This document shows positions 9,251 through 49,332 of a stretch of DNA of 49,332 nt, one piece after another. The stretch comes from a virus. Numbering within the stretch: the stretch's first letter is position 1; each line of letters starts with the position of its first letter. Position numbers and translations under genes: made by a program. The stretch spans positions 1 through 49,332 of IMG/VR virus record IMGVR_UViG_3300042883_000878; one strand, given 5' to 3'. The notes beneath the pieces were generated by a model, which worked only from the letters and a program-made list of their open reading frames with translations, ran no database searches and was not told the DNA's origin.

Positions 9251-9258
9251 TATTTATA
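9251..9258 (-). promoter_or_regulatory. T4-type late promoter core for genes 22 and 23
   Basis: The minus strand reads TATAAATA, part of TATAAATAAATATAG, 31 bases before the gp22 ATG. An overlapping AAATA repeat and a second TTAAATA-like core nearer the gene (about 9237-9243) could be extra starts. Confidence 0.8.
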
Positions 9259-10655: not shown

Positions 10656-10663
10656 TATTTATA
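10656..10663 (-). promoter_or_regulatory. T4-type late promoter core containing the gene 20 stop codon
   Basis: The minus strand reads TATAAATA and its TAA (10661-10659) is the stop codon of the portal gene. It lies 24 bases before the gp67 ATG and would drive the 67-(unknown)-21 genes. Confidence 0.8.
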
Positions 10664-15448: not shown

Positions 15449-15456
15449 TATTTATA
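15449..15456 (-). promoter_or_regulatory. T4-type late promoter core for genes 18 and 19
   Basis: The minus strand reads TATAAATA, a full consensus match, 36 bases before the gp18 ATG in the 64-base gap after gene 17. Confidence 0.85.
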
Positions 15457-19095: not shown

Positions 19096-20490
19096 TTAGT
19101 TACAGTTCCAACGACGAAGTGCTTTATTGATTCTTGAATCTGGATCTCTTGCAGTTTTTGCAGAAGTGAGTTTATCCTTCATCCCAGACATGCGCCGGCA
19201 GAATGAAGCACGACGCTTTGCTCTTTTACCTTTTGGTTTCTTTTCAGTTACAGCAGTTTGGAGTTTTGAACCAGGATTCTCACGACGATATGCTTTAACC
19301 GCAGCAGAACTTAATCCATCAGTTTTGTCTTTGCGATTGACTTTTTGCCAGTCTTCAGATAATCCAAAATCTGATCTCCAGTTTGAGTATTCTTCTGCTT
19401 TCATTTCACCACTATCAACATAATCTGCAGCACTATCCAGGTAATCTGCTGCTTTTGTAATTTTTGATTGTACCCATGCCTCAATATTACCTTCTCCCTT
19501 CATTTTTTTGCGAAGTCTCTTGGCAGCAGAAACGATTGTGGACAGTTCTGATCTTGCCATAGAGTGCTCGTGATCATATCCTTCATTGGCAGGATGAACT
19601 TGTGCAATATCATATTTCATTTGATTTGTAGTCAACATAGATGGTGTTGAATACAATGCCCAGAACTTTGGACCATATTTACATTCGGACTGAGTTTCGT
19701 CTTTTTTACACTTTGGACAATATCTAAGCATTACTTGCTCCTCTTTTACTGGTACACAATTTGGGACAATTTTTTTACCTTTCTTTTTCATACCTTCTTG
19801 CTTATATCCGTCCCAACAATCTTCCGACTTTGTTCCCCAGTTAGCAGCACCAACTTTACGACACTTAACCAGTGCTCCTGATGCATATGCACTAGGCCAA
19901 ACATCATATCTAGACTTTACTTTACTATAGCAAGCATCTTTTTTGCCACTACCCTTTCCTTTAATGTCTTTTTCTTCGTTCATTTTTGGTTTATCGGTAG
20001 AAACATAGGTTGGTTTTTCGGCACCAGATTTTGATTGTTGTCCTGGATCTGCTGCTTTTTTTCTTCTTGATGCAGAGCGTCTTTCAGCAGGAGTCATACT
20101 TGCTCTTTTTGCAGAAGAAACACATTTTGGAGTTCCTTCTCCAGGTTCATCACTCGCGCAAGTTCCCCCAGTTACAACATTTACCCATCCAGGTTTTCCA
20201 TCTTCTGAACTGGACTTATTGAACCATTTGTGTAGATTTCCTTCTTTCACATCTTTAAATTTTTTATGATGCTTTTTGGCATCTGCTTCCATTTTTTTCA
20301 AACGTGTATAATAATCTGGAATCTCATCCAAATGTTGAAGAGCAATTTCAGTTGCCAATTTTTGATTTTTTGTATGCTCGTGTTCAATTGGAGCACCCAT
20401 ATCAAGTTGTTTCTGAATAAACGAAACTTCAAGACGATGCTTTTTAGCAATCTCTTCCACTGTTTTATATGGTTTCAATTGCTCATTCAT
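19096..20490 (-). CDS. Basic, Cys-rich multi-domain protein (DUF5661-, DUF6321-, DUF5872-like segments)
   Basis: A 464-residue mosaic located between genes 16 and 17. Segments in order: residues 7-68 with IEHEHTKN and HLDEIPDYYTRLKKME (DUF5661-like); 86-167 with LHKWFNKSSSEDGKPGW, a Cys pair and DPGQQSKSGAEKPTYVST (DUF6321-like); 184-225 with ACYSKVKSRYDVWPSAYASG (DUF5872-like); a CxxC plus Cys cluster at 258-270 (YCPKCKKDETQSEC) that could bind zinc; a helical segment 308-375 (MARSELSTIVSAAKRL, VQSKITKAADYLDSAADYVD); and a basic C-terminus ending RRMSGMKDKLTS and SRINKALRRWNC. The domain names are from memory. Very high Lys/Arg content suggests nucleic-acid contact, perhaps packaged with the DNA. 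No enzymatic motif is seen. Confidence 0.7.
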   Translation of the reverse strand: MNEQLKPYKTVEEIAKKHRLEVSFIQKQLDMGAPIEHEHTKNQKLATEIALQHLDEIPDYYTRLKKMEADAKKHHKKFKDVKEGNLHKWFNKSSSEDGKPGWVNVVTGGTCASDEPGEGTPKCVSSAKRASMTPAERRSASRRKKAADPGQQSKSGAEKPTYVSTDKPKMNEEKDIKGKGSGKKDACYSKVKSRYDVWPSAYASGALVKCRKVGAANWGTKSEDCWDGYKQEGMKKKGKKIVPNCVPVKEEQVMLRYCPKCKKDETQSECKYGPKFWALYSTPSMLTTNQMKYDIAQVHPANEGYDHEHSMARSELSTIVSAAKRLRKKMKGEGNIEAWVQSKITKAADYLDSAADYVDSGEMKAEEYSNWRSDFGLSEDWQKVNRKDKTDGLSSAAVKAYRRENPGSKLQTAVTEKKPKGKRAKRRASFCRRMSGMKDKLTSAKTARDPDSRINKALRRWNCN

Positions 20491-23123: not shown

Positions 23124-23966
23124 TTATCCAATAAAATCGTAAGGTGGTAATTCGTATTCTAAAGTCATTCTCTGCTTTAAATCTTCTAGTTCTCGTTCAG
23201 CATCTTCATAAAGTTCTCTACCGTTCAATTCAATTCCTCCAGGAAGTTTCACTCCTCTAAATTTAATTAGATTTTGACCCCACTGCTTTTTCATTAGGGC
23301 GGTTAAATATTTTTTGAGAAAACTGTCATTATAAACTTTGGTAAAATCATTTGGATCTAAAATTCTATAACAATCTATGACAATAAAAGTATCTTTACTT
23401 TGAGAATTCCAGTCAATATCAAGATACATTCTATTTTGTCTTTTATTAAATCTAATTTGTTTATCTGTAGTTAAAAGGAAATCAATATCTTCTAGATAAC
23501 TTTTAACCATCGCATATTGTAGCAATTCAACGGAGTTGAAATAATACAGGTCATTTAGAAATAATTGATATTTAATGCTGAACATTCCGCCAGAGATGGA
23601 ACTGGTATCAAATTTAAATACTTTTTCAATTCCAATTACTGAATCTGGAACTTGAATAAAATTTGAAGATTCGTAAAAATTAAAACTAGTCGTTCCAATT
23701 CCGCTAATATTTGCTGTTCCGGTTGTCGTTACAATTCCTACGCCATTTGTACCTTTAGCTCTTCCTCTATTAATATCTTCATCAGTAAGTTTATATTTTA
23801 AAAACATTCTTTCGACACCATCAAAGTGCCTTTCATGAAAATATTGCAATGCGTCGTCAACTAGATCATCAATTTGATCATCATCAATATTAATTTCGAG
23901 TACTGGAGCACCTAAACGTCTCAAACAATAGTCAATGAGTGCTTGCCTTGTTGCTGGTTTTGACAT
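23124..23966 (-). CDS. 13: gp13 neck protein
   Basis: Head completion/neck protein. It has 280 residues against 309 in T4. Diagnostic N-terminal CLRRLGAPVLEINIDDDQIDDLVDDALQYF, then FIVIDCYRILDPNDFTKVYNDSFLKKYLTALMKKQWGQNL and the C-terminal ERELEDLKQRMTLEYELPPY. A short VGIVTTTGTANISGIG insertion at about residues 75-95 is cyanophage-like. Its start overlaps the stop of the fibre-like gene by one base (TGATG). Confidence 0.96.
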   Translation of the reverse strand: MSKPATRQALIDYCLRRLGAPVLEINIDDDQIDDLVDDALQYFHERHFDGVERMFLKYKLTDEDINRGRAKGTNGVGIVTTTGTANISGIGTTSFNFYESSNFIQVPDSVIGIEKVFKFDTSSISGGMFSIKYQLFLNDLYYFNSVELLQYAMVKSYLEDIDFLLTTDKQIRFNKRQNRMYLDIDWNSQSKDTFIVIDCYRILDPNDFTKVYNDSFLKKYLTALMKKQWGQNLIKFRGVKLPGGIELNGRELYEDAERELEDLKQRMTLEYELPPYDFIG

Positions 23967-24424
23967 CAGTATGATCCCCCATCTATTGAATTGGACCAGA
24001 TTGGAATTCCGGAATTATCTGTTGTTAGTATATAGTTACTATAATCAATACTAGAACTAGTTGCTCCTGTAGAAACCATTAATCCAGAAGAATTGAAATA
24101 TGCCACTCCACTAGTATTATAGTTTGGATAATAAAATGAAGTAATAGTAGCAATACCAGTTATATTTGCATTTCTGGCAGTAAATTCGTCAAATCTTAAA
24201 TCATCTCGAATATAAAGATCGCCACCAATGTAAACATCACTATTAAAAGTTGCAATTCCAACAAATGTCGATACTCCACTAACACCTAGTTGAGATACGG
24301 ATGCAATACCACCAATAACATTTACTGAATTGGTCGAATTTACTGCAAAATCCGATCCTCCGGAAAGGGAAGAAATAACCTTAATTGAATTTTGTTGACC
24401 AACTCTTACCTTTATATCAGACAT
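23966..24424 (-). CDS. Small fibre-like virion protein
   Basis: A 152-residue protein with a repetitive Val/Ile/Gly/Asn/Ser pattern such as SVSQLGVSGVSTFVGIATFN and DVYIGGDLYIRDDLRFDEF, typical of trimeric beta-helical shaft segments. Similar GVSTF and YIGGDLY stretches are frequent in cyanophage fibre proteins. It lies in the T4 whisker position (wac, just before gene 13) but has no coiled coil. Coupled on both sides by one-base overlaps. It may be a neck fibre or small tail fibre; receptor binding is not shown. Confidence 0.65.
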   Translation of the reverse strand: MSDIKVRVGQQNSIKVISSLSGGSDFAVNSTNSVNVIGGIASVSQLGVSGVSTFVGIATFNSDVYIGGDLYIRDDLRFDEFTARNANITGIATITSFYYPNYNTSGVAYFNSSGLMVSTGATSSSIDYSNYILTTDNSGIPIWSNSIDGGSY

Positions 24425-24768
24425 TATCGAGTAACTCCTTCTCTTACGAGAACCATTCCCTCAACAACTCTATTTTTAGATCCGGATAAATCTGTAATTA
24501 TAATGTCATAAACATATCTTCCAGGTTTAATTGTTGATGTTTCTGCAGCAGTCAATCTAATAAAAATTTTTCCAGAATTTGATGGTGGTATAATACTAGA
24601 GGTAAATTCTATCGCAGTAGAACTTCCTGCCCATTTTCTCATTTGGGCAGAAACAGTATAATTTGACAAATTAAGTGGAGAATTTGTATCCGACCCTTCT
24701 AATGTGAATGTCTGAGTAAAATCTACGCCAGCGTTTATAACTAGATTATTTACATATACTGCTGCCAT
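24424..24768 (-). CDS. Small BppU/Ig-like virion protein
   Basis: A 114-residue protein whose layout resembles the N-terminal beta-sandwich of baseplate upper protein BppU: GVDFTQTFTLEGSD, PLNLSNYTVSAQMRKWAGS, a middle IFIRLTAAETSTIKPGRYVYDIIITD, and a closing VVEGMVLV strand. This fold is common in small baseplate and adhesin proteins. No enzymatic residues. A TATAAATA promoter overlapping the previous stop codon begins its transcript, which runs on to gp13. Function as a structural connector is inferred. Confidence 0.7.
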   Translation of the reverse strand: MAAVYVNNLVINAGVDFTQTFTLEGSDTNSPLNLSNYTVSAQMRKWAGSSTAIEFTSSIIPPSNSGKIFIRLTAAETSTIKPGRYVYDIIITDLSGSKNRVVEGMVLVREGVTR

Positions 24769-24791: not shown

Positions 24792-24799
24792 TATTTATA
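24792..24799 (-). promoter_or_regulatory. T4-type late promoter core containing the NblA-like gene stop codon
   Basis: The minus strand reads TATAAATA and its TAA (24797-24795) is the stop codon of the 58-residue gene upstream. It lies 23 bases before the BppU-like ATG. Confidence 0.85.
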
Positions 24800-24971
24800 T
24801 CCCCAGCGCACTGAGAGAATTTATTACCTCTTGTTGCTTAAGATACAATTTACAATATAATTTTGCAAATTTTTTGAGTTCTTCAAAATCTAATTCATCA
24901 ATTGTTCTTGAATGTTTTTCAAATTCAAATAATTTATCAATTGATTCCAGTTCTATATCATTTGGTTCCAT
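24795..24971 (-). CDS. 58-residue small protein, NblA-like (phycobilisome degradation adaptor) candidate
   Basis: A short gene found by reading the minus strand between two known genes. It starts MEPNDIELESIDKLFEFE and ends QQEVINSLSALGI. The start is strongly supported by AAGGAG seven bases before the ATG, and it overlaps the upstream gene by 14 bases. The pattern F-E-x(3)-R-x-I/L-D-x-L-x-x-E-E-L followed by a second helix ending Q-Q-E-V-I-x-x-L resembles NblA, the small two-helix protein that directs phycobilisome breakdown; phage-encoded NblA is known. Against this: such short helical motifs occur by chance, and the gene lies among tail genes. Alternatives are a small coiled-coil assembly factor or an unknown protein. 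That it is a real gene is much surer than its identity. Confidence 0.7.
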   Translation of the reverse strand: MEPNDIELESIDKLFEFEKHSRTIDELDFEELKKFAKLYCKLYLKQQEVINSLSALGI

Positions 24972-25161
24972 TAACTAACTCCTTAAGTAATGATTTTATT
25001 TCATCAATATCTTTTTTCATATTATCCAATTCTCTTTTTTGAGAATCGCGATTATTAATACTATTTACATATTGAGTATAAGCATAATTATCGCAATTAA
25101 TAATGGCACCTGTCTGTTCATCTCGATACAAATTTGGGTGACCTTTTACTGGAATCATCAT
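24958..25161 (-). CDS. Small coiled-coil cyanophage protein of unknown function
   Basis: A 67-residue protein. The N-terminus VKGHPNLYRDEQTGAIINCD looks like a small beta hairpin with a Gly-rich turn. The C-terminal half (QKRELDNMKKDIDEIKSLLK) is a heptad-type coiled coil, probably trimeric. Such proteins act as adaptors or chaperones in phage tails. It overlaps the giant gene upstream by ATGA and the NblA-like gene downstream by 14 bases. I recall similar proteins as conserved hypotheticals in cyanomyoviruses. Confidence 0.75.
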   Translation of the reverse strand: MMIPVKGHPNLYRDEQTGAIINCDNYAYTQYVNSINNRDSQKRELDNMKKDIDEIKSLLKELVNGTK

Positions 25162-28100
25162 CTAATTGCAATACTTCTCAAGTCTTTGAATCTTGGTGCA
25201 TATGCTTGATTGGTCCCTGCCATCACAATTTTAATTGTATATCCAGTAAAGTCTCCCAAATTGTTGGCATTAAATTCATATTCGAGGAATTGATTATCCA
25301 AACTTGGAGGAACAAATGTATCTGGTAATCCATTATTTTTTGAAAAATCAATTACATCTGGATATCCATCTTGATTACTATCGATTGTCAAATTAGTATA
25401 ACCTGGGAATAACTCAAATGCCTGTTCAATTTCACTAGAATCTGGTCTAATCAAACTGTATAGAACTCTAAAGTCTGCAGATGCTGGTCTATAAGCTCCA
25501 ATAATCACTTTAAGTGCCGTTGCTGGTTGAGACAACCTCACTGTGTTTGAAACATATACGGCAGCGTGGGGGTCATCGACTAGGGAATTAACTCTACCAT
25601 CATTAACAAAATCTGTAATTGGATTATTAAGTCTGCTGCTTAATAGTCTCACCGAAGAATTCTTCCAGAAAATCATTGGGGATAGATTTGTGTCCGTAGT
25701 GGTTAGATTTACCTTTGTTGTTAGTGATTTATTTCTCAACAAACCACCAAGATAAGTTTGCTCATTAACGTTTGAACAAATAATTCTTGTTGAAGGTAAT
25801 TTATTTTCAGAACCAATTTCAACATTTTCATATCCTTGATCCTGGAAAGAAATTTCTGTGCCATCAATACTGGTGCCACTTACGCTTCTAATTTGTGCGG
25901 TTATTTCTGTTGAAGATCCTGGAACAATACTTGCAATTTCTGGAGCAATAGTATCATACTGAATGTTCTGTGTTGCGTTTACATCACTTCCACCACCAGT
26001 AGATTCTGTATTGAATGAAAGTTGTGGTGTAGAAGTCAGACTTCCATCCGTAGATCTGTTTGTAGTATTTGAATCCAAATTAGATCTATTAAATTCGATA
26101 TAGTATGAGTCAATGTCGTTTCCAGTATCACTAATGTCGTGAGTTGTATTCAATCTTCTTAGAGAAACACCACTGAGTTCATACTTATAAACCATAGTAT
26201 TGGCAGTATGATCTAAAACCAAAGTAGAATCAATTCCTCTGGTGATCGTGAGTAACTGTCCAGTTCCTACAGATTCATATTTAATGAGTTCATCCTCAAT
26301 TTTAACATATCCTGGATTAGATCCACTAACAGCAATTCCCTCAAAAGTTGTGAAGTTTGAAGTTGAAGCAACACTGATTGAAGTATCATTAGATAAAAGA
26401 GTATTGGATAAGGTTGTCGGTTGAATATTAGATTCAATATTGCTTAGAGTTAATTTATTGTTTGCAGCATACATTCCATGATAGAAATGATTGACTTTCA
26501 TAAAGTTTCCAGAATAAACTCCACCAACTGGTGTTGATGATAGAACCGTTGTTCCTGCGAGAGACACTGCTGTTCCAGAATTGTCATAATAGACAAGTGT
26601 AGAAACTCCGACAGTAGTAAATGATTCTGCCTGAACATTGGAAAGATATAATGTATCGACACCACTAATTGCAGAAATGGTGATTCTTGCATCTCTTCCC
26701 GATGCTGGAGACACAGTACTAGTTACAATACCTACAACATCTCCAACCGAATAACCATTTCCGGGAGTTGCTACAGTTAATGAAGTTATAGACGATGTTA
26801 CTCCAGAAACACCAGTAATATTGACTTTTAATCCACTACCATTACCAGTAATTGCATATGTGGAAACATTCGATGTTGGAGTGTAATTAAATCCTCCTGT
26901 AGTGATTCCTACGGTGGCAACTGAACTACCCGTACCAACAATATATCCATAATTATATGGTTTTATAGTATCGCCAATTTTTCTTCCAGTTGTAAGAATA
27001 CCAACTAGGGTACTATTAGTAATAGTACTTACGCCAACGGCAAATTTTTTGGGAAGAGTTGTTAGTGGATTTCTAGATAGAACGGGAACATATCCATTAC
27101 TCTGGTTAAGTGTTGGATTTTGGAAGAATACACTACCAGTTTTTGAAGTAAACTCTGCTTTGTATAACTTAAACTTCAGATCTTGATATTGGTTGGCAGT
27201 CCAAATAGATCCATTTTGAGATTTAAATAGACTACCTAGAGCAAATTGTCTAGTATAACGAACACTCTCCGCATCTGGTAGTGATGCAGTATTTACAGTT
27301 TTTTCACCCATTTCGGCAATCCAGACCTCATATTGATCTGATTGTGGTGCAAGAAGTACAATAGCATACTCAAGACCAGGAGCAAGATAAATTGGATAGT
27401 CAAATGTTACATTTGTGGCAACTAATGCATTTTGTGAGATATTAATATCTGATGGTTTTAGTGTTACTGGATTTCCAATAACAGTTCTTGTAGGAGTTCC
27501 CAGTTCAACGGTCCTAACTTCAACAGTAAGAGGTGCATTATCTGGATCTTTGGATGCAAAGAATAAATCAACAGCAGTTAGATATGCGCCATTGGAATCG
27601 TCATTGGGCGAATTTCCATTTAGATCTTCTACATTTCCACCAACTGAAAATGATTGTGCAAGAGGATCAACAAAATAAACAGTATTGTTGGTTGTTGTTA
27701 CTCTCTGTCTTTGTTCCCAAGTTCCTTCTGCCTTGTAAATTGTTTCTGCAGATGAAATTAGTTTACTTCCTGGTAGTGGCGTTTGATTGCTGGAACTTGA
27801 AGATAATTTATAAACCTTAGAACCGGTTGCAATTCTGACAGGAGGTGTTGGGTTTGATAGTGGGTCTCTCAGGAAGAAAGATCCCTGAAGATCGCCATAA
27901 TTATCAGAAATAAGTTTCAAATCTTTTACATAGGCAACTACACCACTTGTTTGTCCGACAAGTTTCATTCCAGTAACAACATAACCAGAATAGAGACCTT
28001 GTGCTTCTGCACACAAACTATTAATATCTACATTGAGAATCTTTGAAGATGCACTGTAAGATGAAGGAATATCTTCAGATTTTAAATATGGGTTGATATT

Positions 28101-31100
28101 ATAAGTTACTGATGGTGAATTGAATGCACCTTCTTTATGATTTGGTACTGCAACTCTGAAATTGATTAGATTTTTTCCATTATAGGAACCAATTACAGTT
28201 TCACCAATACTAAATGCTCCCGATGCACCATAATTACTTAGAGTGGAATCTGATGAAATCTCAATAAGTTTTGGAATAAAGTCTACTTCACTATTACCAT
28301 CAAGAAACTGATAAATTCTAGTTAGTGGTTTTAGATTTACTACATTAAATCCAGTATTTCTGGATCTCATATAGAGTTCTGTGCCAGATGCTAAAAGTCT
28401 ATCCTCAACAGTTGTTGTTGATTCCTGACCAACGACTTCCCATCTTCCAGTTGCCCTTAACCAAACCCAGTTCGTTTGATTGATATTTACATCTTGTGAT
28501 CTAATTGTTCTAACCCAACTATCACTCGAAGGATTGAGTTTTACTGTACCGTTATATGAAACAACGTGGAATGGATTTACATTTTCAACCTTTGTTGCGA
28601 GTGGTTGTTCAATCCAACCAATTGAATCATATTTTAGGGTAATTACATCATTAGTTTTTTGTACATTTGAGTCATATAATTGGATGTTGTTTACCAGTTC
28701 AAGATTTTCATCAGTAAATGATTCTGCATAAACTGGAAGCAGATTAAGACTATTTCTACTAATTCTTGGTGTTAGTTCTTTATTTACTGTATCAACTTCA
28801 ACAGTTGAAAATTGATTATTAATGAGATCACTATTTTTAAAATCATCTACAAAGAAACCAGTTTTAAATCTATTAAATCCTTGAGCATCTTGAATCTGTA
28901 AAGTCTGAGTATTCAGTTCTAAAAGAGTTAATGAAGTTACTCTCTCAAGATTTTCTACGCGATCTTCAATAAGACCAATATCCCTCATTGTATATCTTCT
29001 ATTATCCGATAGTGATACTGCAATATCCTTTGGATTATAAAGATATGGGGGCAGTGTAATGGTTGCAATTTCCATTACATCATCTGGTTTTGATGGTGCT
29101 TTTGGATTTATTGTAGGAATACCTTGAAGAACAATAAAGTTACCTAGTTTATCAAGATAAAGCTTATCAATTCTACCAAGATAAAAATCATATCCAACTA
29201 AAGAACTTTCTTTTGGTGAAAGAATTAATTTAGGTTCTGAACCGAATGTTCTTGAAGAAAAGTCGAATGGTGAAGAAGTAGTACTATTGAATACTGATAC
29301 TCTTGGTCTAAAATCTAAGGTATCAGATGCTCTCACACTATTTTTGCCAATAGATGGAATATCCTCAGAGAATCTTGACGATTCATAACTATTGACTGTA
29401 AATAGATCACCAGTGTCTCCAGAAGGAACAGAATAATAATCAAATACTACAAGTAGTTTCCTTGTTGGCGAATCTTCACCACGGTTTCTTACAAGTCTTG
29501 AATAATCATAATATTGTTCTTTTTGCCCCTTATCAAGACTGAACTTCTCTGTGACATTTTTATAACTTCCTGGGATAATAGAAATGAGGGAGGTATTAAT
29601 ACCAGATTCTTCGAAAGAAATATTTTCACCAACAACAAAACGATTCGTATTTAAATAGACAATACCTAAAGTATTTGAGGAAGGTTTTGTTACGATTCTT
29701 GCAATCGCCTTACTTGCCCCACCAATAATATTTTCTCCAATGATGGCATTAGTATTAACATTGGCAATTGAACTGAACGTAACATAATCAAGCACTGGTT
29801 CTGAAGTATTTAAAGATTCATAAACGGCAATAATCTTTGCTACATCTGGATAATTTAAACAAATTTCTTCATCCTGAACTCTCAACCCATAATATGGATT
29901 ATATGTTAATCCATCATTAATAGAAGTACTAATTCCTGTTCCAGACTGTTGATATTTTGATAAATTGACATTAATTGTATTACTACGATTAAATTGTTTT
30001 ACTTTACTTTGAATACCATTTTTAATAAATGTTGCATTAATTGCTGCAATATTTTTGTTTGAAATATCACTAAAAGTTACTTGATTACTTGATATGGTTA
30101 CTTTATCAGAAGTCAGAGCATCAATTGTACCATCAGCATAATGTATTGAATATCTTTCTTCATCAAATACTTGGAATAGTGAAAATGATGAACTAATTCC
30201 AAGATCAAAGTTAGATGTAGATACGGTAAGTGTATTGCTAGATGGAGTGAATGTTACATTCGATTGTGCCCTAAATGTTAAAATAGATGAACTTAAATTA
30301 GTTGTGGCAACATTTGAATCTGGTAGTCGTGCGTATAAATATCCTTCTTGCTCATTTCTAATTTTAGGAGTACCTAGAGAAAATGTTGTACTTGTCTGGG
30401 ATGCTGGAAGTGCTCCATCACAAACACCAGAAACACTAGCAATGCCTGATAAAGTCATTGAAGTTCCATCTGCAGAAACTGACAGAACTCTATTATATGT
30501 TTCTGTCAAAAATCCAACTCTTTGATAACGAATGATTGAATCGGATGAAATTCCACTGAATAATTTTCCCGATGCAGTAACTGAACCACTAGATTGAATC
30601 GTGATAACATCCGTTGGAGAAAATCCGAATGCAGTAGTTCTATCTAATTGTGTATCGGCAACAAATGAAGTTGAGAATCCTGTGGATTGGAATACTGAGT
30701 TAATATCTTGACTTGAATATGATCTTGTGCTTTTAATTGTTCTTGAGAATAATTCGACACCATTAATGAGTATTTGTTCACCAACGATAAATGTTCCGGA
30801 TGTTTGTCTCAGAAAAATTGTATCAGAACCAGTACCAGCAGATGTTACATAACCACTTGCACCACTACTCTTTCCTTTAATGAATGAGGTTGCTGGTAGT
30901 TCTGCGTCAGAAATACCTTGATTTAAGACTAGTTGTGTGTATGTTTGAATATCATAGAGATATAAATCCCAATTTGTTCCAGCATTTGAGTAAGCAGAAT
31001 CGGTAACATTGAATGCATATACTCTTGCATCTCCAATTTTTGTACCTGTGGCAGATGTGGTTGAAGATTTTCTTTGATTATAAAGGTCAACAGTTGTTTT

Positions 31101-32342
31101 TTGTTTTACACAACCAGAAACATTGTTTACTCTGATAAGATTACCCATCTCAAATGGGATATTCACATTTGATATAGTTTGCGTTGTTCTTGGTTTAGGA
31201 ACATCAACAATTTCAATTCCAGTTTTATCAATATCATAACCCCTAACATATGCTTTCCCTGGGGAAAGTTTAATACACATCAAGTCATCTGACGGAGTAT
31301 TACCTTGATCAGTTTTTTCATTACTAAAGAAGATTCCATCATTACCAAGTCTGTTATTTAAAGAATTATTGATCGAAAATTCAAAGGGATCTACAACATA
31401 ATCGCCAGATTCGTCGTAGGTTCTTTGGGCAAGATAGTCTTTAATTAATGAATATTGTGATTTGGTTTCAATTTTTTTAATTGCACCATCTTTGACTCTT
31501 AAGAGTTCAACAAAATCAGTATCATTGTCTACATCACTTATCAGTTTTTTTGTTAATATTAGAGAAATCTTAAATCTATCTGCACCTGGTGCAGCATAGT
31601 TACTAAATCCCTTGGCATTATCATACAGCGTTGAATCGTCCTTTGCTGTAATGATTTGCTCATTAATTCTGAGACCTACACGGTATGATGGGGTATTGGT
31701 ATAATAGTCGAGAATAATTGTTTGCTTTGGTACTCGTACAAATGTACCTCTAATAAAATAAACACCTTCCCCTATTGAAGCAGCAGATCCAGTAGAAGTT
31801 GCATTTGAAGAAATGGTAGTTGCAAAAGATGTGCCAGCATTAATTGTTGTGCCACCATAAACTACATTTTCACTTGCCGATAAAGATTCGCCATTCTGAA
31901 ATTCATTAAATGTGAAATTATTATCAGAATCTTGATATTTTACATATATTGTTACATATTCTACTTCAGAGTTTGGAAGTTGAACTAATTGAATAGTTGC
32001 AGTTGTTCCTGAAACTTGGCCAGTTATTTTTTTCCCTACAAAGTTTTGAATATAAGATGTAATATTAACCCCAAATGCTGTTAGGTTTAATTTTACAGCA
32101 TAAAGTTGATTATCAAAAGCAATATTTCCAGGGATCACCATTGACCCTTCTTTGAATATATGACTACCAAACGACTCTACCTGATCTTGTAATATTGATT
32201 GAAGAGTGTTTAATTCTCTTGCCTGTACAGGTCTTCCTGGATTGAATAGAACTTTATAATAGTTTTTATCTTTAGCGCCAATATCACGCTCATTAAAATC
32301 ATCATAATATGGGTTTACATTGAGATTTGTTTTTTGAGCCAT
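25158..32342 (-). CDS. Giant DUF4815 baseplate/tail structural protein in the gene 9-12 slot
   Basis: A 2394-residue protein. The N-terminus (YYDDFNERDIGAKDKNYYKV, LFNPGRPVQARELNTLQSIL and SHIFKEGSMVIPG) is the DUF4815 signature of large phage structural proteins. It replaces T4 genes 9-12 between gp8 and gene 13. The middle is Ser/Thr/Ile-rich and beta-type. Around residues 1480-1610 is a WEQRQRVTTTNNTVYFVDPL and VDLFFASKDPDNAPL region. Residues about 1810-1880 carry the GY-repeat module (NYTPTSNVSTYAI, GNGYSVGDVVGIV). Residues about 1980-2060 carry an IEDELIKYESVGTGQLLTI-type module. The C-terminus (SLDNQFLEYEFNANNLGDFT, YAPRFKDLRSIAIR) looks globular. It probably links the baseplate rim to fibres. 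Confidence 0.88.
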   Translation of the reverse strand: MAQKTNLNVNPYYDDFNERDIGAKDKNYYKVLFNPGRPVQARELNTLQSILQDQVESFGSHIFKEGSMVIPGNIAFDNQLYAVKLNLTAFGVNITSYIQNFVGKKITGQVSGTTATIQLVQLPNSEVEYVTIYVKYQDSDNNFTFNEFQNGESLSASENVVYGGTTINAGTSFATTISSNATSTGSAASIGEGVYFIRGTFVRVPKQTIILDYYTNTPSYRVGLRINEQIITAKDDSTLYDNAKGFSNYAAPGADRFKISLILTKKLISDVDNDTDFVELLRVKDGAIKKIETKSQYSLIKDYLAQRTYDESGDYVVDPFEFSINNSLNNRLGNDGIFFSNEKTDQGNTPSDDLMCIKLSPGKAYVRGYDIDKTGIEIVDVPKPRTTQTISNVNIPFEMGNLIRVNNVSGCVKQKTTVDLYNQRKSSTTSATGTKIGDARVYAFNVTDSAYSNAGTNWDLYLYDIQTYTQLVLNQGISDAELPATSFIKGKSSGASGYVTSAGTGSDTIFLRQTSGTFIVGEQILINGVELFSRTIKSTRSYSSQDINSVFQSTGFSTSFVADTQLDRTTAFGFSPTDVITIQSSGSVTASGKLFSGISSDSIIRYQRVGFLTETYNRVLSVSADGTSMTLSGIASVSGVCDGALPASQTSTTFSLGTPKIRNEQEGYLYARLPDSNVATTNLSSSILTFRAQSNVTFTPSSNTLTVSTSNFDLGISSSFSLFQVFDEERYSIHYADGTIDALTSDKVTISSNQVTFSDISNKNIAAINATFIKNGIQSKVKQFNRSNTINVNLSKYQQSGTGISTSINDGLTYNPYYGLRVQDEEICLNYPDVAKIIAVYESLNTSEPVLDYVTFSSIANVNTNAIIGENIIGGASKAIARIVTKPSSNTLGIVYLNTNRFVVGENISFEESGINTSLISIIPGSYKNVTEKFSLDKGQKEQYYDYSRLVRNRGEDSPTRKLLVVFDYYSVPSGDTGDLFTVNSYESSRFSEDIPSIGKNSVRASDTLDFRPRVSVFNSTTSSPFDFSSRTFGSEPKLILSPKESSLVGYDFYLGRIDKLYLDKLGNFIVLQGIPTINPKAPSKPDDVMEIATITLPPYLYNPKDIAVSLSDNRRYTMRDIGLIEDRVENLERVTSLTLLELNTQTLQIQDAQGFNRFKTGFFVDDFKNSDLINNQFSTVEVDTVNKELTPRISRNSLNLLPVYAESFTDENLELVNNIQLYDSNVQKTNDVITLKYDSIGWIEQPLATKVENVNPFHVVSYNGTVKLNPSSDSWVRTIRSQDVNINQTNWVWLRATGRWEVVGQESTTTVEDRLLASGTELYMRSRNTGFNVVNLKPLTRIYQFLDGNSEVDFIPKLIEISSDSTLSNYGASGAFSIGETVIGSYNGKNLINFRVAVPNHKEGAFNSPSVTYNINPYLKSEDIPSSYSASSKILNVDINSLCAEAQGLYSGYVVTGMKLVGQTSGVVAYVKDLKLISDNYGDLQGSFFLRDPLSNPTPPVRIATGSKVYKLSSSSSNQTPLPGSKLISSAETIYKAEGTWEQRQRVTTTNNTVYFVDPLAQSFSVGGNVEDLNGNSPNDDSNGAYLTAVDLFFASKDPDNAPLTVEVRTVELGTPTRTVIGNPVTLKPSDINISQNALVATNVTFDYPIYLAPGLEYAIVLLAPQSDQYEVWIAEMGEKTVNTASLPDAESVRYTRQFALGSLFKSQNGSIWTANQYQDLKFKLYKAEFTSKTGSVFFQNPTLNQSNGYVPVLSRNPLTTLPKKFAVGVSTITNSTLVGILTTGRKIGDTIKPYNYGYIVGTGSSVATVGITTGGFNYTPTSNVSTYAITGNGSGLKVNITGVSGVTSSITSLTVATPGNGYSVGDVVGIVTSTVSPASGRDARITISAISGVDTLYLSNVQAESFTTVGVSTLVYYDNSGTAVSLAGTTVLSSTPVGGVYSGNFMKVNHFYHGMYAANNKLTLSNIESNIQPTTLSNTLLSNDTSISVASTSNFTTFEGIAVSGSNPGYVKIEDELIKYESVGTGQLLTITRGIDSTLVLDHTANTMVYKYELSGVSLRRLNTTHDISDTGNDIDSYYIEFNRSNLDSNTTNRSTDGSLTSTPQLSFNTESTGGGSDVNATQNIQYDTIAPEIASIVPGSSTEITAQIRSVSGTSIDGTEISFQDQGYENVEIGSENKLPSTRIICSNVNEQTYLGGLLRNKSLTTKVNLTTTDTNLSPMIFWKNSSVRLLSSRLNNPITDFVNDGRVNSLVDDPHAAVYVSNTVRLSQPATALKVIIGAYRPASADFRVLYSLIRPDSSEIEQAFELFPGYTNLTIDSNQDGYPDVIDFSKNNGLPDTFVPPSLDNQFLEYEFNANNLGDFTGYTIKIVMAGTNQAYAPRFKDLRSIAIR

Positions 32343-32345
32343 TTC

Positions 32346-33929
32346 TTAAAATTCCAGGATAATTTTAACGTCTTCTTTTTGTCTAGAACTTCGTGTTACT
32401 ATAGGTCTATTATCAATGTAGATTATATCACCTGACTTATTATTTATCTCTGGATTTGCAAGACCATTTGTAAATTGAACTCCAAGATTTATAATTTTAT
32501 TAGAAATTGTGGTTGTAATGCCGATAAATGAACTATCTACACTAGCATTAAATCCCCCACCAACCTTAGAAACTTGGTTAGATGAATTAAATTGCAATAC
32601 TTTTCCAGATGTTGATAGTCCAACATAATCTGTTTGATTGTAAGTTGTTGGATTGAAGTATAAAGATCTATCTTGATAATATTTTAAAACCTTAGTTTCC
32701 GAATCATATGATGCAACATATCCAACAGCAGTTCCCCCAGTAACAGATTGTTGAATTTTATCTCCAACAGAGATACTTCCAGTTGGTGTACCACCAAATT
32801 TCATTGCATAAACTGCAGAAAATTCACTGGAAGTAAATTTAGAAGTATTAATTCCTGTAGAGTCATACACTGTTGGGTTTTTTAAAATTCCAACTTGCGA
32901 AAATTTAGTATCTACTGGGAAATCTTTTGTTGAATCGTCAAATCTTGCATAAATTAAAACTTTATCTGCCCCAAGTTCTCTATAAACATCAAATCCATGA
33001 CCCTTGGATGGTGGAATAATGGGAATTAATTGTGCATATATTCCAGGATTTCCAGTTGTCCCTAAATCTACAAGAGCATATGTGTAATTCTTTCCGCCAG
33101 AAGTTACTGTAGCATCAGTAATTCTTCCAGAAGTATCTACATCCAAAGATACTGTTGCTCCACTACCGTCACCAATAATATTGCAAGTTTTCCCTGATGT
33201 GAGAGTATATCCTAGACCCCTATTTTGAATATATACTTTTTTCAACTGATTATCATTTAAAGTTGAATCACCATTTTCTCTAACTGCATTTATCTGAGAA
33301 TCTGTGGTAGTTTGCCAATCATTTGGAACAGTAATATATTCGATAGAATCAAATTTAATAATATCACTTGGAGAAACGGTATATAAGTATTTCCAGATAT
33401 AACCATCACCACTTTCACCCGCTCTTGAAGGTTCCAAATCGGTAAAGGTTGGTTGATCTTGAGAAGAATTTCCTGTCGTATTAATTCCAGATGAACCATT
33501 ATCAATACAAATATAGACTCTATAATCGGAATTAATTACATAATAATTGGCATCATATAATCTCATAGCACCTGTAATTGGTGAGGGATTTACAACACTA
33601 TAATCGGGTCTATACATCTCATATTTTGTACCTTCAACCCAATCTATCTTTCTAATTACTCTTCTAATATTTGCACTTGTAATTTTTTTACCGAAAAGAG
33701 CAGTACTTTCATAATGATTTAAATAATCAATATTATCTGTCGGATTTGGAGGTGTAGTATTCCAATTAGAATCCCTACCAAATCCATATGCTGCTGGACT
33801 AGATCCAGAAACTGGTCCTGGATTAGATAATCCTACAAAAACATAATATGAATTTGTAGAATCCTGAACAGAATCTATAAAATTAGATGCATTCAGAATC
33901 CTAAATTGATCTGTTACAAGTGCAGACAT
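32346..33929 (-). CDS. 8: gp8 baseplate wedge protein
   Basis: Baseplate wedge component. It has 527 residues against 334 in T4. The N-terminal half follows T4 gp8: VTDQFRILNASNFIDSV, YYVFVGLSNPGP, PPNPTDNIDYLNHYESTALF, SGDGYIWKYLYTVSPSD and FDSIEYITVPNDWQ. The remaining part is an added beta-rich domain with a GY-repeat-type segment (NRGLGYTLTSGKTCNIIGDG) and a GHGFDVYRELGADKVLIYAR region. A TATAAATA promoter precedes it, so it starts a transcript separate from the gp7-like giant. Confidence 0.92.
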   Translation of the reverse strand: MSALVTDQFRILNASNFIDSVQDSTNSYYVFVGLSNPGPVSGSSPAAYGFGRDSNWNTTPPNPTDNIDYLNHYESTALFGKKITSANIRRVIRKIDWVEGTKYEMYRPDYSVVNPSPITGAMRLYDANYYVINSDYRVYICIDNGSSGINTTGNSSQDQPTFTDLEPSRAGESGDGYIWKYLYTVSPSDIIKFDSIEYITVPNDWQTTTDSQINAVRENGDSTLNDNQLKKVYIQNRGLGYTLTSGKTCNIIGDGSGATVSLDVDTSGRITDATVTSGGKNYTYALVDLGTTGNPGIYAQLIPIIPPSKGHGFDVYRELGADKVLIYARFDDSTKDFPVDTKFSQVGILKNPTVYDSTGINTSKFTSSEFSAVYAMKFGGTPTGSISVGDKIQQSVTGGTAVGYVASYDSETKVLKYYQDRSLYFNPTTYNQTDYVGLSTSGKVLQFNSSNQVSKVGGGFNASVDSSFIGITTTISNKIINLGVQFTNGLANPEINNKSGDIIYIDNRPIVTRSSRQKEDVKIILEF

Positions 33930-33948: not shown

Positions 33949-33956
33949 TATTTATA
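33949..33956 (-). promoter_or_regulatory. T4-type late promoter core for gene 8 and the DUF4815 gene
   Basis: The minus strand reads TATAAATA (in GTATAAATATAG), a full consensus match 19 bases before the gp8 ATG, in the gap after the giant gene. Confidence 0.85.
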
Positions 33957-48865: not shown

Positions 48866-48872
48866 TATTTAT
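48866..48872 (-). promoter_or_regulatory. Late-promoter-like ATAAATA upstream of speD
   Basis: The minus strand reads ATAAATA and contains the TAA stop (48871-48869) of the upstream gene. It lies 36 bases before the preferred speD ATG. Confidence 0.55.
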
Positions 48873-49332
48873 TTCGTATTTTGATCTGCTTCCCAAAAAT
48901 ATTCTTCGGTATGTCCTAGATATTCATTATATTGACCAGTTTCAGTCGTAAAATGCCTTGTTGAAACAAGAAAATCTGGTTTTTTGAGTATTTTTGGAGT
49001 TAAACTCTCATCTTTCCATCTACACCGATTATTTGGATAGAGACCAATTTGACCATTTGGGAGAATAATACAGTTATGTGACTTATGTTCTTCTGCAAAT
49101 TCGGCAAATGTTAGATCTGGGATGTTTCTATCCCGATGAGAAGCATCAATTGTGAACAAATATCTACCACCCTCTGAGATATAACCTGATCTATGCTTAA
49201 CTTCGACACTCATCGTGTATAAAAATTGCTTTTCAACAATCTCAGAGTCGTAATCGAAGGAATCCCAATACTGAAGATCGGGTAATGGTAGATCTTTTTC
49301 AAGTATCCTTGGTTTATCTGGATGGTCACTTT
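48869..49332 (-). CDS. Unknown protein, 5' end beyond the window
   Basis: An open frame of at least 153 codons ending at a TAA at 48869. An internal Met at 49213 could look like a start, but the frame continues open upstream to the window edge with protein-like sequence (for example LPLPDLQYWDSFDYDSEIVE), so I call it truncated. Visible features: hydrophilic, aromatic, with the segments SGYISEGGRYLFTIDASHRD, NCIILPNGQIGLYPNNRCRW and GQYNEYLGHTEEYFWEADQN. No recognised family, membrane segment or catalytic signature. Located upstream of speD. Confidence 0.75.
   Translation of the reverse strand, partial: SDHPDKPRILEKDLPLPDLQYWDSFDYDSEIVEKQFLYTMSVEVKHRSGYISEGGRYLFTIDASHRDRNIPDLTFAEFAEEHKSHNCIILPNGQIGLYPNNRCRWKDESLTPKILKKPDFLVSTRHFTTETGQYNEYLGHTEEYFWEADQNTK

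Follow-up and report, generated by a model that had tools for sequence, protein, structure and literature searches.

The locus described here raises the question of what function a gene for a 58-residue protein might have in the middle of the tail gene cluster of a T4-like cyanophage, and, specifically, whether it encodes a highly divergent NblA expressed late in infection, as proposed in a preliminary description of this DNA. NblA, a homodimer that forms a four-helix assembly, is a trigger of light-antenna breakdown. The window, that is, the entire stretch of 49,332 nucleotides that was analysed (IMG/VR record IMGVR_UViG_3300042883_000878), is a 49-kb virus record whose minus strand carries structural genes of the T4-like cyanophage type, encoding baseplate wedge subunits, neck proteins, gp15, the terminase, tail sheath, tail tube and portal, along with the protease, scaffold and major head protein.

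The preliminary description recognized a short gene with an AAGGAG ribosome site and a 14-base overlap with its neighbour, and all these features are present. The ATG start codon stands in the context TTACTTAAGGAGTTAGTTA-ATG, with an SD-like match (under a permissive pattern) preceding the gene in 52 of 54 distinct loci, and among the 77 loci that extend 220 nt or more upstream, the window counted in, the overlap with the upstream 67-aa gene is 14 nt in 73, 20 nt in three and 26 nt in one. Strong purifying selection acts on the gene, with pN/pS of 0.20 and dN/dS of ~0.11 (588 pairs, 54 distinct sequences), the latter value being approximate because dS is near saturation. Relatives were confirmed in IMG/VR, 252 in a first scan and at least 568 in a second. 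Given these hundreds of relatives, the conserved start, overlap and ribosome site, and the low dN/dS, the gene is real beyond chance, and the notion of a chance open frame or decaying remnant, which the shortness of the ORF and its lack of a profile of known function might suggest, is refuted.

Placement in a tail gene cluster was likewise borne out, the neighbours being a baseplate wedge subunit, a 2394-aa protein, neck proteins and the tail sheath stabiliser gp15 (Table 1). Five copies of TATAAATA, the T4-type late promoter sequence, lie on the minus strand (9251-9258, 10656-10663, 15449-15456, 24792-24799 and 33949-33956); all five are 20-36 nt upstream of a gene start, and several overlap the end of the preceding gene. 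The zone 10-45 nt 5' of the 35 starts used amounts to ~2.6% of positions, and the total number of copies in the window is not above chance (6 found vs 6.94 expected), so that the placement of the motif, not its number, is the telling feature. Among relatives, 53 of the 54 distinct loci have [ATC]ATAAATA between -8 and +60 nt relative to the end of the gene, where the overall frequency of the motif would give 0.014 per 68 nt. Because late-promoter motifs frame this unit, the 58-aa gene appears to be the last cistron of a putative late unit running from 33929 to 24795 and comprising the baseplate wedge, 2394-aa, 67-aa and 58-aa genes. Late expression, as previously suggested, is supported by this operon layout and is thus probable.

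Table 1. Coordinates of the 58-aa gene, its neighbours and the associated signals in the window
Feature	Position	Strand	Evidence
58-aa helical-hairpin protein gene, phrog_27081 (cyanomyovirus 'NblA' family)	24795..24971	-	ORF, profile match, fold model, dN/dS
Ribosome-binding site region AAGGAG, just 5' of the 58-aa gene start, within the end of the upstream 67-aa ORF	24975..24981	-	sequence
67-aa virion structural protein, phrog_473; overlaps the 58-aa gene by 14 nt	24958..25161	-	profile match, locus comparison
2394-aa protein, relatives annotated VrlC / structural protein; upstream, same unit as the 58-aa gene	25158..32342	-	relatives' annotation
527-aa baseplate wedge subunit, phrog_438; first gene of the putative late unit ending with the 58-aa gene	32346..33929	-	profile match
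Late-promoter-like copy of TATAAATA, 20 nt 5' of the baseplate wedge unit	33949..33956	-	motif scan
TATAAATA late-promoter-like site overlapping the stop codon of the 58-aa gene; precedes the next gene	24792..24799	-	motif scan
114-aa protein, phrog_3304 (named L-shaped tail fiber protein assembly); first gene of the next unit	24424..24768	-	profile match
152-aa protein, similar to baseplate wedge / fibre repeats	23966..24424	-	profile match
Neck protein gp13, phrog_211, head-tail adaptor	23124..23966	-	profile match
Neck protein gp14, PF11649	21730..23121	-	profile match

The window also encodes, beside the small terminase gene, a conserved 464-aa protein (19096-20490, minus strand; phrog_727, E 2.3e-100), and a 114-aa ferredoxin-like auxiliary metabolic gene (48869-49213, minus strand; phrog_3704, E 1.3e-35) lies a few hundred bases off the baseplate wedge genes, another metabolic gene beside the tail block. 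The earlier remark that a metabolic gene among virion genes would be unusual is weakened by this ferredoxin gene.

The window protein matches phrog_27081 (E 6.9e-18), annotated as of unknown function and matched by all 23 of the 23 aligned members, and the window gene is found by the family profile at E 5.6e-30. The family consists of hairpins of 54-66 aa with a near-invariant core, KLYxKQQE, to which the window protein conforms. Its consensus produced 34 matches in all, among them 25 phage records at E <= 1e-7, which represent 19 distinct genomes after removal of six RefSeq duplicates. Matches to Shewanella and Pseudomonas phages (E 0.5-3) and to P-SSM4 (E 0.027, 12 positions) were treated as chance, a hit to Pfam nSTAND_NTPase4 (E 0.014; 16 bits vs a cut-off of 27) as noise, and PDB profile matches to a CTPR repeat protein, AcrIIA15 and AfpA (best E 0.027) were partial or repetitive and at chance level.

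The closest named relative is a 58-aa protein of the freshwater Synechococcus phage S-SRM01 (QPX48163.1 / YP_010670173.1), with 74% identity over the full length; its gene occupies the same slot with the same 14-nt overlap, its product is annotated as hypothetical only, and NblA goes unmentioned in the accessible portion of the S-SRM01 genome paper. The second informative relative is ORF237 of S-SCSM1 (QFG06501.1, 'phycobilisome degradation protein (nblA)'), which shows 54% identity over 88% of the query and shares equal length, the hairpin motif and the KLYxKQQE core with the window protein, but its gene is flanked by those for a virion protein and a helicase, next to 2OG oxygenases, whereas the window gene is in the neck/tail slot. 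Thus, the NblA idea for this family is not new, being already in print for S-SCSM1: in its available text, PMC9602691 assigns ORF237 to NblA from HHpred, extends the assignment to one freshwater phage unnamed there, cites a 2019 prediction of nblA in S-TIM5 (Nadel et al.), and presents a tree in which these phage genes group with picocyanobacterial nblA. No nblA passage was found in the accessible parts of PMC8557907, PMC10452541 and PMC10665884. The literature searched, insofar as its text was accessible, yielded no description of the tail-operon position of the gene and no experiment on the cyanomyovirus family. The group of Nadel et al. is said to have produced a later study of viral NblA.

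Several further relatives came to light. A genome scan for the KLYxKQQE core recovered none in a cyanobacterium and a single relative (56% identity to the query; contig L179, 4001-4162) in a MAG labelled Euryarchaeota, the contig in question being most likely of cyanophage origin and binned with the MAG. The freshwater Synechococcus phage S-CRM01 encodes a diverged member (AEC53054.1; L235, 986-1246; E 6.8e-6) between an RlpA-like gene and tRNA genes, its tail locus being without the gene. AGH31732.1 of S-SKS1 (L008, 3264-3677) comprises ~80 unrelated residues fused to a full family member starting at an internal Met, so that it is either a two-domain protein or a gene with the start called too far upstream. 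Diverged members of the family are unannotated in the GenBank records of Sf-CH8 (L012, 3501-3668) and Sf-CH5.

The genomic places of these genes bear on the possibility that the protein is a small tail structural or assembly component, for example, one that chaperones the large structural neighbour or pairs with the 67-aa coiled-coil protein. Such a role would fit the lineage of the window: 80 loci were retained from the first IMG/VR scan, of which three had no upstream sequence, and in the remaining 77 of 77 the gene lies between structural genes with the 67-aa gene directly upstream, in line with the conserved 14-nt overlap with a structural gene and the position at the end of a late unit. 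The best non-family scores of the family profile also include 67-aa coiled-coil proteins, at chance level (6.6-7.1 bits). However, a fixed linkage to tail genes does not extend to the wider family. In the second IMG/VR set, 64 of 80 loci could be located by regular expression, the other 16 being dropped; the 67-aa neighbour is present in 40 of these 64, absent in 20 and unjudgeable in four, and 15 of the 20 loci without it contain none of the structural queries.

Named phages show the same variation. The tail slot holds the gene in S-SRM01, S-SM2, Bellamy and SynMITS9220M01, and the gene is unlinked from tail genes in S-SCSM1, S-SKS1, S-TIM5, S-B43, Sf-FS3 and DSL-LC03. It adjoins the terminase in S-SCSM2R, precedes the helicase and 2OG oxygenases in S-SCSM1, adjoins 2OG oxygenases in Sf-FS3, lies near plastocyanin (petE), transaldolase (talC) and tRNA genes in S-TIM5, and is found among small genes in S-SKS1, S-B43 and DSL-LC03. 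Against a tail role, the gene is missing from an otherwise retained tail neighbourhood in S-SCSM1 and S-SKS1 and lies 23-178 kb away (record coordinates) in these phages, and P-SSM2, P-SSM5, P-SSM7, S-PM2 and S-CRM01 have the 67-aa gene with no family gene alongside. Moreover, the S-SCSM1 virion study, which reports 45 virion proteins and singles out three as non-structural, does not name ORF237 in the text available. Because its places vary and tail loci without it exist, the gene behaves as an accessory gene, not a tail part, and a structural or assembly function is unlikely. Since S-SCSM1 and S-SKS1 carry both genes far apart, packing of the protein with the adjacent coiled-coil 67-aa protein is unlikely as well.

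The host range of the family was informative to a limited degree. All 25 phage records matched at E <= 1e-7 are Synechococcus phages, and no Prochlorococcus record is found among the 34 consensus matches. The preliminary description had set phages of Synechococcus against those of Prochlorococcus, a host without phycobilisomes, and conservation across the two host genera is indeed unequal, with 0 of 8 Prochlorococcus phage records matching the family profile at E <= 0.01, a comparison of low power. The 67-aa neighbour is present in 18 records named Prochlorococcus; if 25 of ~340 Synechococcus/Cyanophage records carry the gene, finding it in 0 of 18 has a chance probability of ~0.25. The distribution among Synechococcus phages thus fits a phycobilisome target, and the absence from Prochlorococcus phages could be due to chance because the gene is rare in sequenced Synechococcus phages. 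S-SCSM1 is reported to infect both genera.

At the level of sequence, the profile search suggested in the preliminary description went against an NblA assignment. PF04485 does not match the window protein at E <= 10, any of the 23 family members, or any protein in the 31 records holding a family member. Of the two findings that the preliminary description would together have taken as refutation, lack of a profile match and equal conservation in phages of phycobilisome-free hosts, only the first is thus seen. As a control, the same profile detected true NblA in 6 of 42 records, three podoviruses among them, with five over the 25-bit cut-off, podoviral NblA scoring 24-28 bits. The podoviral NblA used for comparison came from S-TIP37, S-SRP01 and KBS-P-1A. 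In S-TIP37, the match (L180, 1501-1668; 28 bits, over the cut-off) overlaps the end of an exonuclease gene and is unannotated, and S-SRP01 and KBS-P-1A have genes called hypothetical at the corresponding place.

Profile-profile comparison of the family with authentic NblA yielded probabilities of 0.4-4.8% and scores of 9.5-15.8; the probability was 0.4-1.4% when 39 or 120 sequences of the family were used and 3.2-4.8% for 179, compared with 96% and a score of 47 for a positive control in which NblA (9 sequences) was aligned with podoviral NblA. The references comprised three PDB sequences or fragments (2qdo dropped as a duplicate of 2q8v), six from IMG/VR and three podoviral; the divergent nblA-like gene reported for marine Synechococcus WH8102 (PMC7439483) and other cyanobacterial NblA genes fall outside this set. 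With helix information added, 5 of 200 column shuffles reached the profile-profile score, a marginal result, and with the 39-row profile the true score fell below the best of 300 shuffles. When an NblA profile was run over 356 small ORFs, family members ranked 18 to 199, among unrelated ORFs, and no NblA was listed when PDB sequences were searched with the family profile. Nor is the invariant KLYxKQQE core a signature of NblA. Sequence homology to NblA is therefore not reproduced here, opposite to the published HHpred result.

The predicted fold is closer to NblA. The two helices noted earlier are recovered by AlphaFold2 (39 sequences; pLDDT 92.5), which places them at 11-25 and 29-55, the short first and long second helix being the anatomy of NblA. 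A true NblA encoded on an IMG/VR contig (L184), which shares 88% identity with the matched part of NblA 1ojh, was modelled as a control and has helices at 8-22 and 26-55, so that the helix-loop-helix lengths of the two predicted models are 15-3-27 for the family vs 15-3-30 for NblA. The best ungapped profile diagonal, at offset 3, superposes the helices (5.99 vs 0.61 for the next); its score was reached by 3 of 1000 free or within-segment shuffles and by 160 of 1000 shuffles that keep the hydrophobic pattern, from which it follows that the likeness is one of the amphipathic plan of the hairpin. Of the NblA-like residue pattern claimed in the preliminary description, the hydrophobic pattern and the N-terminal I.L....F stand, and the profile match does not. 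Foldseek listed no NblA for the family model, nor for the model of the true NblA, and hence gives no judgement on NblA; its matches to AscX, vaccinia A6, Shedu and others all had E >= 2 and probability <= 0.21. Overall, the family resembles canonical NblA (PF04485; PDB 1ojh, 2q8v, 2qdo and 3cs5) and podoviral NblA in size, predicted hairpin, N-end I.L....F and register, but differs from both in the lack of a PF04485 score and of profile-profile homology, in the core of helix 2, and in having no conserved C-terminal extension.

If the likeness extends to the short amphipathic hairpin only, the protein could be an accessory host-takeover protein with another target, either another adaptor for a protease or a protein that binds a component of transcription, translation or photosynthesis. 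This strong rival, close behind the NblA-like reading, is a serious possibility: homology to NblA is not demonstrable in the sequence, the family has a near-invariant core of its own and no cyanobacterial relative in the genome scan for that core, and mobile, accessory behaviour suits any host-directed gene. The close match in hairpin lengths, the published HHpred result, as given in the text seen, and the fact that the matching isolates all infect Synechococcus nonetheless speak for NblA.

The best reading, and in our view the single most likely function, at a little under an even chance, is that of an accessory, host-directed, late NblA-like adaptor. A host-directed role is suggested by the accessory nature of the gene and its several genomic places, some beside auxiliary metabolic genes. 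The NblA name is supported by shape, hosts and gene mobility, not by sequence, and the earlier proposal of a divergent late NblA accordingly holds for the predicted hairpin, the Synechococcus hosts and the late layout and fails in the PF04485 and profile-profile tests; because of these profile tests, the gene would not be filed under PF04485. In the NblA-like scenario, a small dimer of the 58-aa protein would dock on phycobilisome proteins and hand them to the host ClpC protease, to which it would putatively bind, and the resulting breakdown would, late in infection, free amino acids and dim the antenna. Because its gene comes last in the putative late tail-gene transcript and is presumably coupled in translation with the 67-aa structural gene, the protein would be made at the same time as virion proteins. 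More tentatively, the family might represent a separate class of phage antenna-degradation adaptor that acquired the NblA hairpin by extreme divergence or convergence, and that in this and similar lineages is locked into a late tail transcript, with phycobilisome breakdown timed with virion assembly.

Beyond the published assignment, the present analysis shows that within one large lineage the gene has a conserved position in a late operon, and it offers a calibrated measure of the weakness of the sequence evidence for the NblA name. If the family is not NblA-like, the label spreading in GenBank (S-SCSM1, S-SCSM2R) is wrong, and these proteins are an uncharacterised host-takeover family. If it is NblA-like, hundreds of contigs of uncultured T4-like cyanophages (252 stretches confirmed in the first IMG/VR scan and 568 or more in the second) would carry a phycobilisome-degrading protein invisible to PF04485, so that antenna breakdown would be undercounted in surveys based on that profile, and one large lineage would have the gene fixed in a late tail operon, with antenna breakdown timed to coincide with virion assembly.
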